A stretch of 38,088 nt of DNA, taken from the NCBI GenBank assembly GCA_029262295.1, contig JAJCZR010000019.1, positions 1-38,088 of the forward strand. Direction: 5' to 3'. The translations under genes and the position numbers were made by a program. How positions within the stretch are numbered: position 1 is the first letter of the stretch; every line of letters begins with the position of its first letter. Below, piece after piece: positions 10,823-15,900 of the stretch. A model generated the notes under the pieces. The model was not told where the DNA came from. It saw nothing but the letters and a program-made list of their open reading frames with translations, and made no database searches. The stretch is from Deltaproteobacteria bacterium. GTDB taxonomy: Bacteria; Desulfobacterota_D; UBA1144; Nemesobacterales; Nemesobacteraceae.

Positions 10823-12418
10823 ATGAATCGATTTATCTATCGAAAATACATTTTTTTAACACTAATTTTTAGCCTGCTACTTTTTGCAGGATGTGTAAAG
10901 CCATCTCCAAAATCAACTATTAATAAACTTCCTGATCCAAGAACTGAGCCTATAGAGTTTGTTCACCTTCCAAGTGATTATGAACTTTCTGTGAGAGGAT
11001 ATGGTTCTACCTTCTTTTTTATTAACCCAATGGTAAATAGTTATAGAAAGAATATTTACCTTGAAAAACTTGTTGGGATTGTAAACAAAGAGGATCAAGA
11101 ATTTGAACTGAATGTTGTTGAGAATGAACAGGTTCAAAAATATATAGATTACTTCACCGGAAGGGGCAGAAAATATTTTGAAGTATGGCTTGAACGATCA
11201 GGGAAATATGTACCAATCTTTGAAGATATGCTCCAGGCACGCAGGGTTCCAAAAGAAATTGCCTATCTTTCCATGATAGAAAGTGGTTTTAATATGAAAG
11301 CCCGTTCAAACAAGCATGCTGTCGGGCCCTGGCAGTTTATAAGATCAACTGGAAAAAGATATAACTTAAGAATTGATTCATGGGCAGATGAAAGAATGCA
11401 CCTTGAAAAATCAACCCATGCTGCTGCAAGTTACCTGACTGACCTTTATGATATTTTTCAATCCTGGGAACTCGCACTTGCAAGTTATAACTGCGGTGAG
11501 AGAAGGGTATTCAGAGAAGTAAGAAAACATAAATCCCATGATTATTGGGTTGTATCAGAATCCCTTCCAAGAGAGACAAGAAACTATGTTCCAAAATATT
11601 TTGCAGCCCTGATTATTTCAAAAAACCCTGAAAAATATGGTTTTAAAAAACCTGAATTTATTAGGGAAAAAGACTATCAACTTGTAAACGTTCCTCCCTC
11701 AAAAAACCTTAAAGATATTGCAAGAATATCAAATATAAGTGATGAAACCCTTCTGGACTTTAATCCAAGCTTAATTAGCAAAGCCACTCCACCGGGAAGT
11801 TCTTACCAGCTCAAAGTTCCACGGATTTATGCTGATCAGGTTGAATCCAAAAACAAGGAAATAGCTGCACTTAAAATAGTGAAAGAACCTTCAGTTACAA
11901 GACCGAAAATCACTTATTACAGGGTAAGAAATGGTGACAACCTCGGTTATATTGCAAAAAAATTCCGTACATCTGTTAAAAGCATTAAAAGACTTAATAA
12001 AATAAATGGAACCAAAATTTTTCCAGGGCAAAGGCTCAGAATTTCTGGCTCTTCTAAAAGTTATGCTTCATCTTCCAAAAGCAAAAAAAGAACTTATACT
12101 TCAAGTTCTGGTTCAACTCATAAAGTAAGAAGCGGTGAATCCTTATCTGTAATTGCTGAAAAATACGGGACTTCTGTCAGATCAATAAAAAGTGCTAACA
12201 ACCTTAGTAACACAAAGATTAAGGCAGGACAAACATTAAGAATCCCAAAATCCAAAAGCTCAAAAAGTTCATCTAAAGTAGACTATAAGATAAGAAATGG
12301 TGATACGCTTTCAGAGATTGCTGAAAATTACCGTGTATCAGTTTCCGACCTAAAGAAATGGAACAACATGTCTTCAAACAGGCTTACCGCAGGAAAAAAG
12401 ATAGTGATATTCAGGTAA
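10823..12418 (+). CDS. mltD: MltD-like membrane-bound lytic murein transglycosylase with three LysM repeats
   Basis: A 531-residue lipoprotein that cleaves glycan strands of peptidoglycan. The N-terminus has a signal peptide with lipobox LFAGC (Cys24). The SLT domain spans about 125-260: catalytic Glu153 in MIESGFN, then AVGPWQFIRSTG (166-177) and ALASYNCG (218-225). Three LysM peptidoglycan-binding repeats follow at about 365-408, 432-475 and 487-530, joined by Ser/Lys-rich linkers. This layout is that of MltD. It is the first gene of a run with the two glycosylase-like genes, the next start lying 10 bp after its stop. Confidence 0.92.
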   Translation: MNRFIYRKYIFLTLIFSLLLFAGCVKPSPKSTINKLPDPRTEPIEFVHLPSDYELSVRGYGSTFFFINPMVNSYRKNIYLEKLVGIVNKEDQEFELNVVENEQVQKYIDYFTGRGRKYFEVWLERSGKYVPIFEDMLQARRVPKEIAYLSMIESGFNMKARSNKHAVGPWQFIRSTGKRYNLRIDSWADERMHLEKSTHAAASYLTDLYDIFQSWELALASYNCGERRVFREVRKHKSHDYWVVSESLPRETRNYVPKYFAALIISKNPEKYGFKKPEFIREKDYQLVNVPPSKNLKDIARISNISDETLLDFNPSLISKATPPGSSYQLKVPRIYADQVESKNKEIAALKIVKEPSVTRPKITYYRVRNGDNLGYIAKKFRTSVKSIKRLNKINGTKIFPGQRLRISGSSKSYASSSKSKKRTYTSSSGSTHKVRSGESLSVIAEKYGTSVRSIKSANNLSNTKIKAGQTLRIPKSKSSKSSSKVDYKIRNGDTLSEIAENYRVSVSDLKKWNNMSSNRLTAGKKIVIFR

Positions 12419-12428
12419 GTTTGCCTCA

Positions 12429-13073
12429 GTGATTACCCTTAGTTCAATTCGATCAAATCACAAGTTAAAAAGAAAAGAAATAAAAAGTCGGCTGAAAGAG
12501 TTTGAGAAGATTGGCAAAAATGCAGGAAATGAAAAACTGTTTGAAGAAATGGCCCTTTGCATTTTTACTGCCGGGGCTAGTGCCAAGATGGGTATTAATG
12601 CTGTCAATTCCATAAAAGACATTCTTGCCCATGGATCCTTGGCAGAACTTAAAAAAAGGCTCCGTGGAGTCTACAGGTTTCCAAATGCAAGGGCTGGCTA
12701 TATTATCCACACCCGAAACTATCTTACCCGTGAATTTGATATGAATTTAAGAAAGCTTCTACTCTCTTTTAATAATCCAATTGAAAGAAGAAGTTTTATT
12801 GCTAAAAACAAAGACATCAAAGGACTTGGATTTAAAGAATCCAGTCATTTTCTTAGAAACATAGGTTTTAAAGGATATGGAATTCTGGATAAACATATTG
12901 TCAATTGCATGTATGAACTTAATTTGATCAAAACTAACAAACCACCCACAAATGAGAAAAGCTATCTTGAGCTTGAAGACAGGTTGAAAGAATTTTCTCA
13001 AAAAAACAATTTGGATTTTGATGAACTCGATCTACTTTTATGGAGTGAAAAAACCGGAGTAATTCTAAAATAA
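12429..13073 (+). CDS. ogg: Archaeal-type (Ogg2-like) 8-oxoguanine DNA glycosylase/AP lyase
   Basis: A 214-residue helix-hairpin-helix glycosylase that should remove 8-oxoguanine from DNA and cut the abasic site. The hairpin and active site read KGLGFKESSHFLRN, with Lys136 as the expected nucleophile, and GILDKHIVN with catalytic Asp154 and His156, as in the Ogg2 family best known from archaea and some bacteria. The start is GTG at 12429 with no upstream ATG; a weak AGG lies near the mltD stop. A clear paralogue follows 5 bp after the stop, with matching segments along the whole length (FEEMALCIFTAG/FKELCFCILSSG; LDFDELDLLLW/IDIDELDLLLW). Confidence 0.85.
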   Translation: MITLSSIRSNHKLKRKEIKSRLKEFEKIGKNAGNEKLFEEMALCIFTAGASAKMGINAVNSIKDILAHGSLAELKKRLRGVYRFPNARAGYIIHTRNYLTREFDMNLRKLLLSFNNPIERRSFIAKNKDIKGLGFKESSHFLRNIGFKGYGILDKHIVNCMYELNLIKTNKPPTNEKSYLELEDRLKEFSQKNNLDFDELDLLLWSEKTGVILK

Positions 13074-13078
13074 GAGCA

Positions 13079-13732
13079 ATGTGCATCGATAAAGACATAA
13101 AAAATGAACTGGTTCATCTTTATAACGAGAACAAGGATAAAATTAAAAAGCAGCTAAAGTCTTTTGAAAACAACTTTAAGAACTCGAATGATGAAAAGAT
13201 ATTCAAGGAACTTTGTTTTTGTATTTTGAGTTCAGGAGTGGGCCCCAAAATTGCTGAAAATTCACTTCTAAAAATAGAGAATGAATTATGGGATGGCACC
13301 TCTGAGGAGATTATCAAGCTTCTCGAGGGAGTTCATAAATTTCCTGCTAAAGCTTCATATCTGGTTACTACCAGGGATTATCTTAAAAGTGAGCATGATT
13401 TCAAAATAAAATCCCTTATCAGCGAATTTAAGGATAAGAATGAAAGAAGGGATTTTTTTGCAAACAATAAAAACATAAAGGGGCTTGGATATATGCAGGG
13501 AAGCCATTTTCTTAGAAACCTTGGTTTTAAAGGATATGCAATTCTTGACCGAAACAACATTAAATCACTTTATGAGTTGGGCCTTCTTAGCGAACCAAAT
13601 CAACCTTCAACAAGAAAAAGATATCTGGAAACAGAAAAAATTATGGAGGATTTTGCAAAGGAGATAAATATTGATATTGATGAGTTAGACCTTCTTTTAT
13701 GGCTTAGAAAAAGAGGTTATATACCAAAATAG
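13079..13732 (+). CDS. Ogg2-like paralogue lacking the catalytic lysine
   Basis: A 217-residue tandem paralogue of the preceding glycosylase. The fold is kept: ELCFCILSSG, the FP motif near 88, KGLGYMQGSHFLRNLGFKGYAILDRNN and DELDLLLWLRKRG. The active-site position of Lys136 in the neighbour is Met139 here (codon ATG), the next Glu is Gln, and the His two residues after the catalytic Asp is Asn159. Asp157 is kept. A Schiff-base lyase reaction therefore looks impossible, while base removal or DNA/lesion binding remains possible. The ATG has AAGAG just upstream, overlapping the previous stop region. The frame is intact, which argues against a decaying pseudogene. Its stop lies 1 bp from the converging PIG-L gene. 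Confidence 0.8.
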   Translation: MCIDKDIKNELVHLYNENKDKIKKQLKSFENNFKNSNDEKIFKELCFCILSSGVGPKIAENSLLKIENELWDGTSEEIIKLLEGVHKFPAKASYLVTTRDYLKSEHDFKIKSLISEFKDKNERRDFFANNKNIKGLGYMQGSHFLRNLGFKGYAILDRNNIKSLYELGLLSEPNQPSTRKRYLETEKIMEDFAKEINIDIDELDLLLWLRKRGYIPK

Positions 13733-13733
13733 A

Positions 13734-14399
13734 TCAGCTTTCTTTATATTTAATAAATACTTCTGCATAACTATTATCAATGAACTCATAAACATCATTA
13801 AATACTGCCCTGTATCTGTTAAGCCCTAAAACACCTGCAGTATAATCTTTGTACGCAAGTTGACTTTCATGAGTATTAATCGCCTTAGATTTTATTTCGA
13901 CAAAATCAGTAATATCTTCAATTCTGTCATACTGCTCAAAGGGAGTCCATACTTCATAACACCATATACGAGGTTCAGACCCTTTTTCAACTAAACCTTC
14001 AAGTATTCTTATTGAAGTGCTAGCCACTATTTTATGAGTCGGATGTTTATCAATTTCAGGATGGGGAATATATATTTCAACTGGATTATATTTTTCAAAA
14101 CAGGCTGAGAGCATATTCTCTAATTTTTTTCTGTTAGCTTCTGACTTAACCTCGCTTAATCTAAAGCATTCAAGGTTTTTTATACCCAGAATTTCACTTG
14201 AAGCGTCCACTTCACTTTTTCTAATCTTTACGAGTTCACTGGTTGACATATTATTTGATCTTGTACTTCCACTTCCATCTGTTACAACCACTGAAACAAC
14301 TGTGTGACCTTCCTTTATTAGCTTCGCAACAGTGCCGCTCATTGCTATTTCTAGATCATCGGGATGTGGGGAAATAACAAGAATATTTTTAGAATTCAT
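13734..14399 (-). CDS. PIG-L/LmbE family deacetylase
   Basis: A 221-residue zinc-dependent deacetylase of the PIG-L family, which removes acetyl groups from GlcNAc-linked compounds. The N-terminal motif ISPHPDD (residues 10-15) and the later EIDKHPTHK (His119, His122) give the zinc and catalytic residues. The middle has the expected R-K-E segment (LVKIRKSEVDASSEILGI). Relatives include BshB of bacillithiol synthesis and sugar-nucleotide enzymes; the true substrate cannot be decided here. It is a single gene with its start 70 bp from gatB, which runs the other way. Confidence 0.85.
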   Translation of the reverse strand: MNSKNILVISPHPDDLEIAMSGTVAKLIKEGHTVVSVVVTDGSGSTRSNNMSTSELVKIRKSEVDASSEILGIKNLECFRLSEVKSEANRKKLENMLSACFEKYNPVEIYIPHPEIDKHPTHKIVASTSIRILEGLVEKGSEPRIWCYEVWTPFEQYDRIEDITDFVEIKSKAINTHESQLAYKDYTAGVLGLNRYRAVFNDVYEFIDNSYAEVFIKYKES

Positions 14400-14469: not shown

Positions 14470-15900
14470 ATGGAATTTGAACCAGTAATCGGACTCGAAG
14501 TACATGCACAACTTCTCACTGAATCCAAAATTTTTTCTTCCGCTTCAACAAAATTTGGGAGTAAACCCAATTCGCAGGTAACCCCTGTATGCTTGGGGAT
14601 GCCTGGGGTTTTACCGGTTTTCAATAAAAAAGCCCTTGAATTTGCTGTAAAAGCAGGCCTTGCAACAAATTGTGAAATTTCAGAAGAATCAAGGTTTGCA
14701 AGAAAGAACTACTTTTACCCTGATCTCCCCAAAGGCTATCAAATATCACAGTATGATATGCCACTTTGCCAGTTTGGAAAACTTGATATTAAATGTGAAG
14801 GATATGAAAAAACAATAAGAATTACAAGGATCCATCTTGAAGAAGATGCAGGAAAACTAATACATGAAGATTCTGAAACAGAAAGTTATGTCGATCTCAA
14901 CAGAGCAGGAGTGCCGCTTATTGAAATTGTTAGTGAGCCCGACATCTCCACTTCTGAAGAAGCAGTTGAGTATGTAAAAAAGTTGAGAAATATACTCAAA
15001 TATATTGGCGTCTGTGATGGGAATATGGAAGAAGGTAGCCTGAGGTGCGATGCAAATATATCTGTAAGGCCCAAAGGAGAGAAAAAGCTTGGAACAAAAG
15101 CTGAGATTAAGAATATTAACTCTTTTCGGTTTATTCAAAAAGCAATTGACTATGAGATAAAAAGGCAAATAACAAGTATTCAAAATGGAGAAAAGGTAGC
15201 ACAGGAAACCAGGCTTTTTGACTCTGAAAAAGGTGTAACTTTCTCTATGAGATCAAAAGAGGAAGCCCATGATTACAGATATTTTCCAGATCCAGACTTA
15301 CTTCCTGTATTGGTAAGCAAAGAATATATTAATAATCTGAAAGTTAGTTTGCCCGAACTTCCAGATCAAAAACTGCAAAGGTTTACTGAAAAACTTTTAC
15401 TTTCAAAAAATGATGCCGGGATACTTACTTCATCAAAACCACTTTCAGACTACTTTGAGAAGTGTCTTAAGTATCTTGATAATCCCAAAGTTGTTAGCAA
15501 TTGGATTATAAATGAACTACTAAGCGTGCTTGATGATGAAGATAAAATCGGAGAGTTTCAGGTAAAACCAAAAGATATGGCAAAACTACTGGAGCTTACT
15601 GAAAATGGGAAAATAAATGGGAAAATTGCTAAAGAAATATTTCCCGAAATGATAAGCTCTGGAAAATCTGCTGACACTATTGTTGAAGAAAAAAACTTAT
15701 CCCAGATTACAGATCAATCGGAAATCGAAACAACTATAAAAGATATTATTGAAGCTAATCCAAAAGAGGCACAGCGTTATAGCGAAGGTGAAGAAAAGCT
15801 ACTTGGTTTTTTTGTTGGCCAAATAATGAAAGAAACCAAAGGGAAGGCAAATCCAAAGATAGTAAATGAAATACTGAAAAGGCTTCTTGGAAGTAACTAA
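14470..15900 (+). CDS. gatB: Asp-tRNA(Asn)/Glu-tRNA(Gln) amidotransferase subunit B
   Basis: Subunit B of the amidotransferase that makes Gln-tRNA(Gln), and often Asn-tRNA(Asn), from mischarged tRNA. The start at 14470 (MEFEPVIGLEVHAQL) has a strong AAAGGAG upstream; the open frame extends left to 14332 but that part is spurious. Motifs are CLGMPGVLP, RKNYFYPDLPKGYQISQYD, EEDAGK, VDLNRAGVPLIEIVSEPD, EGSLRCDANISVRPKG and the YRYFPDPDL segment. The C-terminal helical tail domain (about 330-476) ends GKANPKIVNEILKRLL. gatA and gatC are not nearby. The stop overlaps the stop of the response regulator on the other strand. Confidence 0.96.
   Translation: MEFEPVIGLEVHAQLLTESKIFSSASTKFGSKPNSQVTPVCLGMPGVLPVFNKKALEFAVKAGLATNCEISEESRFARKNYFYPDLPKGYQISQYDMPLCQFGKLDIKCEGYEKTIRITRIHLEEDAGKLIHEDSETESYVDLNRAGVPLIEIVSEPDISTSEEAVEYVKKLRNILKYIGVCDGNMEEGSLRCDANISVRPKGEKKLGTKAEIKNINSFRFIQKAIDYEIKRQITSIQNGEKVAQETRLFDSEKGVTFSMRSKEEAHDYRYFPDPDLLPVLVSKEYINNLKVSLPELPDQKLQRFTEKLLLSKNDAGILTSSKPLSDYFEKCLKYLDNPKVVSNWIINELLSVLDDEDKIGEFQVKPKDMAKLLELTENGKINGKIAKEIFPEMISSGKSADTIVEEKNLSQITDQSEIETTIKDIIEANPKEAQRYSEGEEKLLGFFVGQIMKETKGKANPKIVNEILKRLLGSN

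Follow-up and report, generated by a model that had tools for sequence, protein, structure and literature searches.

What does an 8-oxoguanine (8-oxoG) DNA glycosylase do when its Schiff-base lysine is gone? The question is raised by a 38,088-nucleotide stretch of DNA (contig JAJCZR010000019.1, hereafter the window), in which two genes of the Ogg2 type, A and B, stand in tandem and only A encodes the lysine. Every OGG family described so far acts bifunctionally in vitro, and the cellular importance of the lysine chemistry is debated (PMC3397491). We compared the pair with its relatives in 58 genomes of the class Candidatus Dadabacteria. As judged from sequence, B is probably a lyase-less Ogg2 paralogue with a role of its own, either in repair or in damage reading.

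The Gene Pair

An ORF check found both genes where an earlier note on this DNA had placed them (Table 1), on the plus strand, with 5 bp separating the A stop codon from the B start codon (ATG). The claim that they are paralogues along their whole length was borne out. Over 200 aligned residues, 45% are identical, and both proteins match the full length of the Pfam Ogg-HhH profile (PF22175, cut-off 27 bits), with 165.8 bits for A and 134.7 bits for B (1-173/173). Against the NCBIfam equivalog for N-glycosylase/DNA lyases (PRK01229, cut-off 183 bits), A scores above the cut-off with 187 bits and B below it with 157 bits. The solved relatives of the two are MjaOgg (3fhf/3knt), TmaOgg (3n0u), and SsoOgg (3fhg). 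The AlphaFold (AF2) model of B has a pLDDT of 95.4, and its top Foldseek matches in the PDB are the MjaOgg entries 3fhf and 3knt, with TM scores of 0.85-0.86. In the tree, the B sequences form one clade (support 94/85) that is nested among Ogg2, with a gene-converted copy standing apart. By profile, fold, and tree, B is a member of the Ogg2 family by descent.

The active site of A consists of Lys136 (codon 12834-12836), Glu137, Asp154, and His156, and the chain ends in Lys214. The alignment confirmed that the four active-site positions correspond to Met139, Gln140, Asp157, and Asn159 in B. Its sequence thus lacks the catalytic Schiff-base lysine (GxGxK) of the Ogg2 N-glycosylase/DNA lyases of PRK01229. 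It has instead the features expected of a monofunctional HhH-GPD glycosylase, namely an absent lysine, a kept aspartate, and a residue other than histidine two positions after the aspartate (34 of 35 B sequences). The ribosome binding site of B had been called good, which was an overstatement, as the sequence taagagcaATG matches only partially.

Table 1. Features of the gene pair and its surroundings in the window
Feature	Position	Strand	Remarks
Lytic transglycosylase with LysM repeats (MltD-like), upstream of A	10823..12418	+	Syntenic with A
Copy A, canonical Ogg2 8-oxoguanine DNA glycosylase/AP lyase	12429..13073	+	214 aa, GTG start
Copy B, Lys-less Ogg2 paralogue	13079..13732	+	217 aa, ATG start
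B-specific wedge loop, residues 51-56 (SSGVGP)	13229..13246	+	Ser52, Gly55, and Pro56 invariant in B
Estranged-base site of B, residues 87-90	13337..13348	+	Lys87 where A has Arg
Met139-Gln140 of B, replacing the catalytic Lys-Glu pair	13493..13498	+	Met codon ATG at 13493-13495
Asp157-Arg-Asn159 of B	13547..13555	+	D-x-N (D-x-H in A)
Asp204 and Trp208 of B, retained 8-oxoG pocket residues	13688..13702	+	Equivalent to MjaOgg Asp194 and Trp198
C-terminus of B, YIPK	13718..13729	+	Same end column as A; Pro216 invariant
PIG-L/LmbE deacetylase, downstream, convergent	13734..14399	-	Often syntenic with B
GatB	14470..15900	+	Closes the conserved block MltD-Ogg-PIG-L-GatB

Origin of the Pair

In the sister lineage, the family coded f8, a single Lys-bearing Ogg gene occupies the same place in the MltD-Ogg-PIG-L-GatB block. 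The conserved block, together with this single gene, indicates that B arose by duplication in situ. In family f3, the block is split; A adjoins MltD, B lies elsewhere, often next to PIG-L and GatB, and both genes persist. B is therefore not always a neighbor of A, and obligate operon coupling of the two was rejected. The word operon in the earlier note was too strong, and the tandem placement is better described as a remnant of the in situ duplication. The neighboring MltD, PIG-L, and GatB genes gave no functional hint.

Distribution and Conservation of B

A complete or near-complete B is present in 35 of the 58 Dadabacteria genomes, and fragments of it lie at contig ends in three further genomes. 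The gene occurs in families f1, f3, f5, and f7 and is missing from the single f2 genome, the single and incomplete f4 genome, both f6 genomes, and all 14 genomes of f8. In two f1 genomes (G011 and G014), the loss of B is real, with A kept and then followed by other genes. B is thus dispensable, being lost in these two genomes and missing in f6 and f8. The converse state, a genome with B and no A, is represented solely by G042, which is 80% complete. Two further Ogg2-like genes were observed in the class. One f1 genome has a third, weak match (G001:C9:142724-143149; 29% identity, E 8e-7). The single Ogg2 of the f2 genome G015 (L155:6498-7160) has Lys-Gln and two B-like wedge-loop residues (Ser and Gly), and it is possibly an intermediate or an A/B chimera.

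A wider search used a degenerate DNA pattern for the Lys-less, Gln-bearing motif in 84,980 species genomes. The motif was confined to Dadabacteria, besides one contig with a Poribacteria title and one chance match. The contig (L080, JAGWBU010000215.1, Candidatus Poribacteria by title) carries the Dadabacteria block ExbD-EamA-Ddl-MltD-A-B and was taken as probably misbinned. A match in Neomarinimicrobiota (L093) was discarded because it contains no Ogg ORF. The pattern demanded Gln after the lost lysine, and Lys-less forms with another residue there are excluded only by a sample of about 330 other bacterial genomes. In that sample, 29 of 31 motif matches were Lys-Glu, and the Lys-less matches in G190 and G247 were chance matches outside any Ogg frame. 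The pattern scan of viral contigs gave no match. A contig search using a single B protein also gave none, while the degenerate pattern did recover relatives.

The lysine position is filled by Thr in 14, Met in 13, Val in five, and Leu in three of the 35 B sequences, differing by family, and never by Lys. Both the adjacent Gln and the catalytic aspartate of the GPD motif (Asp157) are invariant (35/35). The D-x-N motif is found in 34 of 35, the exception being the gene-converted copy with D-x-H. A sequencing error at the Met codon, which the earlier note had considered, is excluded by the lack of Lys in all 35 sequences, among them 12 further Met-Gln sequences from its own family; no relative of B with Lys at this place, another of its concerns, was found among them. 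Its third concern, a dN/dS near 1, did not materialize either. Across 12 genomes of the genus that have both genes, the median pairwise dN/dS was 0.148 for A and 0.169 for B (0.15 and 0.17 after rounding), indicating purifying selection on the Lys-less copy. The genomes are mostly metagenome assemblies, and one may ask whether B is a pseudogene, a sequencing error, or an assembly artefact. The chance of this is negligible. B recurs in separate genomes as full copies without stops, and its dN/dS and conserved B-specific residues already refute such a reading.

Residues That Separate A from B

The earlier note counted three active-site changes. These are present, but the number is too low, as 15 alignment columns separate A from B. 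Eleven of them, including all eight that are fully fixed (8/8), are at base- or DNA-contacting sites; the set of contact sites was picked from the literature after the alignment had been seen, and the small p-value serves as a guide only. The contact-site differences lie in the wedge loop, the opposite-base site, the Lys-Glu pair, the His of D-x-H, and the C-terminus (position 214 and Pro216). In the wedge loop, A has Ala, Ser, and Ala at the places of Ser52, Gly55, and Pro56, and Val54 is also diagnostic of B. At the opposite-base site, Arg is replaced by Lys87 in every unconverted B, and Asn by Glu at position 90. The equivalent region of MjaOgg includes Arg84, the sole residue that contacts the opposite base (PMC3397491). 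The changes at these two sites weakly suggest that the substrate or pairing context of B may differ from that of A.

B retains the pocket residues Trp208 and Asp204. The MjaOgg counterpart of this Trp, Trp198, stacks against 8-oxoG, whose N7-H is sensed by the carboxylate at the C-terminus (PMC3397491). Every complete B stops at the same end position as A; its final residue can be K, R, V, I, or L, and that of A is always K. The carboxylate could still serve as the 8-oxoG sensor despite this variable residue.

Gene conversion has put these differences to a natural trial in Bacterium HR37 (HRbin37; G018:C10, L020, L071), where A has overwritten much of B. The two genes are identical at 133 of 138 nucleotides in the 46 codons before the catalytic lysine and at 188 of 189 nucleotides in the 63 codons that begin 12 residues past it. 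An active-site island was spared, with Lys-Glu (KE) in A and Thr-Gln (TQ) in B, and four of its six nucleotides differ. B also kept its own C-terminus (HIPR; EILK in A) and the B-type wedge and opposite-base segment, while its D-x-N was overwritten to D-x-H. The lysine loss and the Gln survived homogenization and the Asn did not; Asn is therefore not absolutely required.

Other Glycosylases of the Class

MutY (TIGR01084) was found above the curated cut-off in none of the 58 Dadabacteria genomes; the best matches in the class are Nth-like and score no higher than 92 bits (cut-off 286.5). A MutM match is present in two of the 58 genomes, one of them above the cut-off. A full MutM gene in one Dadabacteria genome (G034:C59:28642-29415) is perhaps acquired or on a contaminating contig. 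Two Nth-type enzymes and a MagIII-like one are encoded in the genome of the window. The principal 8-oxoG glycosylase of Dadabacteria appears to be Ogg2.

The catalytic residues of HhH-GPD proteins were surveyed in sampled Dadabacteria, in E. coli, and in 20 further bacterial genomes, with spurious pattern matches removed by eye. Lys was paired with D-x-H in 30 of 30 cases, the Ser/Tyr of MutY with D-x-N in 11 of 11, and the Glu of MagIII-like proteins with D-x-Y in seven of seven.

Possible Roles of B

Our analysis points to B most likely being a monofunctional glycosylase that removes a base by hydrolysis via Asp157-Asn159, a reading that we give an even chance of being correct. A chromosomal Ogg2 gene was duplicated in tandem, in situ, long ago within one Dadabacteria order. 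B diverged by losing the Schiff-base lysine, fixing Gln beside it, and changing D-x-H to D-x-N. The protein would still flip the base into the Ogg2 pocket with neither a lysine Schiff base nor strand cutting. The Asp157-Asn159 pair and a water molecule would remove the base, as the Asp-Asn pair does in MutY, and the resulting AP site would go to an AP endonuclease. A would stay the bifunctional 8-oxoG enzyme. Hydrolytic removal is favored by the coupling of lysine loss with the change from D-x-H to D-x-N, as in MutY. In the MutY active site, Asp and Asn are joined by hydrogen bonding and bond likewise to the DNA backbone (PMC12871665), and the role given to His270 of hOGG1 is in Schiff-base chemistry or formation (PMC4207560). 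On the other side, the D-x-H of the converted B speaks against a strict need for the Asn, no new acidic residue like Glu43 of MutY was identified in B, and some relatives do without B altogether.

Lysine loss alone would predict something else. The Lys-to-Gln mutant of hOGG1 (K249Q) recognizes 8-oxoG but does not catalyze (PMC4207560), and that of NTHL1 (K220Q) binds lesions and is inactive (PMC13022620); both argue for a dead binder and against a monofunctional B. B may thus be catalytically dead, flipping and holding an oxidized purine and serving A or further repair proteins as a sensor, a shield, or a factor that hands lesions over; we regard this, the main rival, as a real but lesser possibility. 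The retained Trp208, Asp204, and exact C-terminal end suit such a reader, as does position 139, where M, T, V, or L is found by family and only the absence of Lys seems to be required. Moreover, the MjaOgg-DNA crystal 3knt itself has Gln at the lysine position, and B stands without A in a single incomplete genome. However, the invariant Asp157 and the MutY-like convergence on Asp-x-Asn go beyond what binding should require. Outside the DNA and base sites, there is no fully fixed difference that hints at a partner surface, A and B persist when unlinked, and a dead binder could be harmful, given that NTHL1 K220Q is dominant negative (PMC13022620). The near absence of MutM and the lack of MutY over the cut-off raise yet another role, in which B acts at 8-oxoG:A, either by removing adenine or by shielding the mispair from A. 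Ogg2 has little opposite-base preference (PMC3397491), and A alone would therefore be mutagenic at such mispairs; the MutY-like D-x-N and the Arg-to-Lys change of the opposite-base site would also fit. Yet families f8, f6, and f2 have neither MutY nor B, so that B is not a required substitute for MutY and may at most contribute. With just 217 residues, B also has no [4Fe-4S] cluster or MutY-type C-terminal domain, and its retained 8-oxoG pocket does not suggest one for adenine. We consider this role improbable.

The earlier note had proposed a new role for B as a lesion sensor, a monofunctional glycosylase, or a regulator or partner of A. The premise of a kept Lys-less paralogue with conserved fold and Asp under purifying selection holds, and the monofunctional glycosylase fits best of the three, in view of the coupled loss of Lys and D-x-H and of the position of the A/B differences at DNA and base sites. 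A regulator or partner has little support, as A and B both persist apart in f3 and B without A occurs in one incomplete genome only.

Comparison with Known Systems

In B, the lysine and its partner His were removed together by evolution, in a paralogue that is kept, beside A or apart from it, across an order. The natural A/B pair, including the near-identical pair of HR37, opens the passage from lyase to non-lyase to direct testing. Such work would show how a class of bacteria that lacks MutY and has almost no MutM deals with 8-oxoG. It is conceivable, though we think it unlikely, that an Ogg2 has naturally turned monofunctional with a MutY-like Asp-Asn center, and that tandem duplication of a single gene provided Dadabacteria with a two-enzyme 8-oxoG system in place of MutM and MutY.

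B shares with the Ogg2 enzymes (PF22175; MjaOgg, TmaOgg, and SsoOgg) the fold, length, HhH-GPD aspartate, stacking Trp, equivalent of Asp194, and C-terminal end position. It differs from them in having no catalytic lysine, D-x-N in place of D-x-H, wedge-loop and opposite-base residues of its own, and no conserved C-terminal Lys. Like MutY, B is a member of the HhH-GPD superfamily with a D-x-N pair and without a Schiff-base lysine; unlike MutY, it has an Ogg2-type pocket, neither a [4Fe-4S] cluster nor a C-terminal 8-oxoG domain, and membership in a different family of the superfamily. The laboratory mutants hOGG1 K249Q and NTHL1 K220Q have lost the same lysine and kept the pocket, whereas B is natural and ancient and has its His, Glu, and DNA-contact loops changed as well. 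EndoIII-3 of Deinococcus is also an HhH paralogue that binds damaged DNA with high affinity and for which no activity was detected, but it belongs to the Nth family and retains both the Lys and the Asp.
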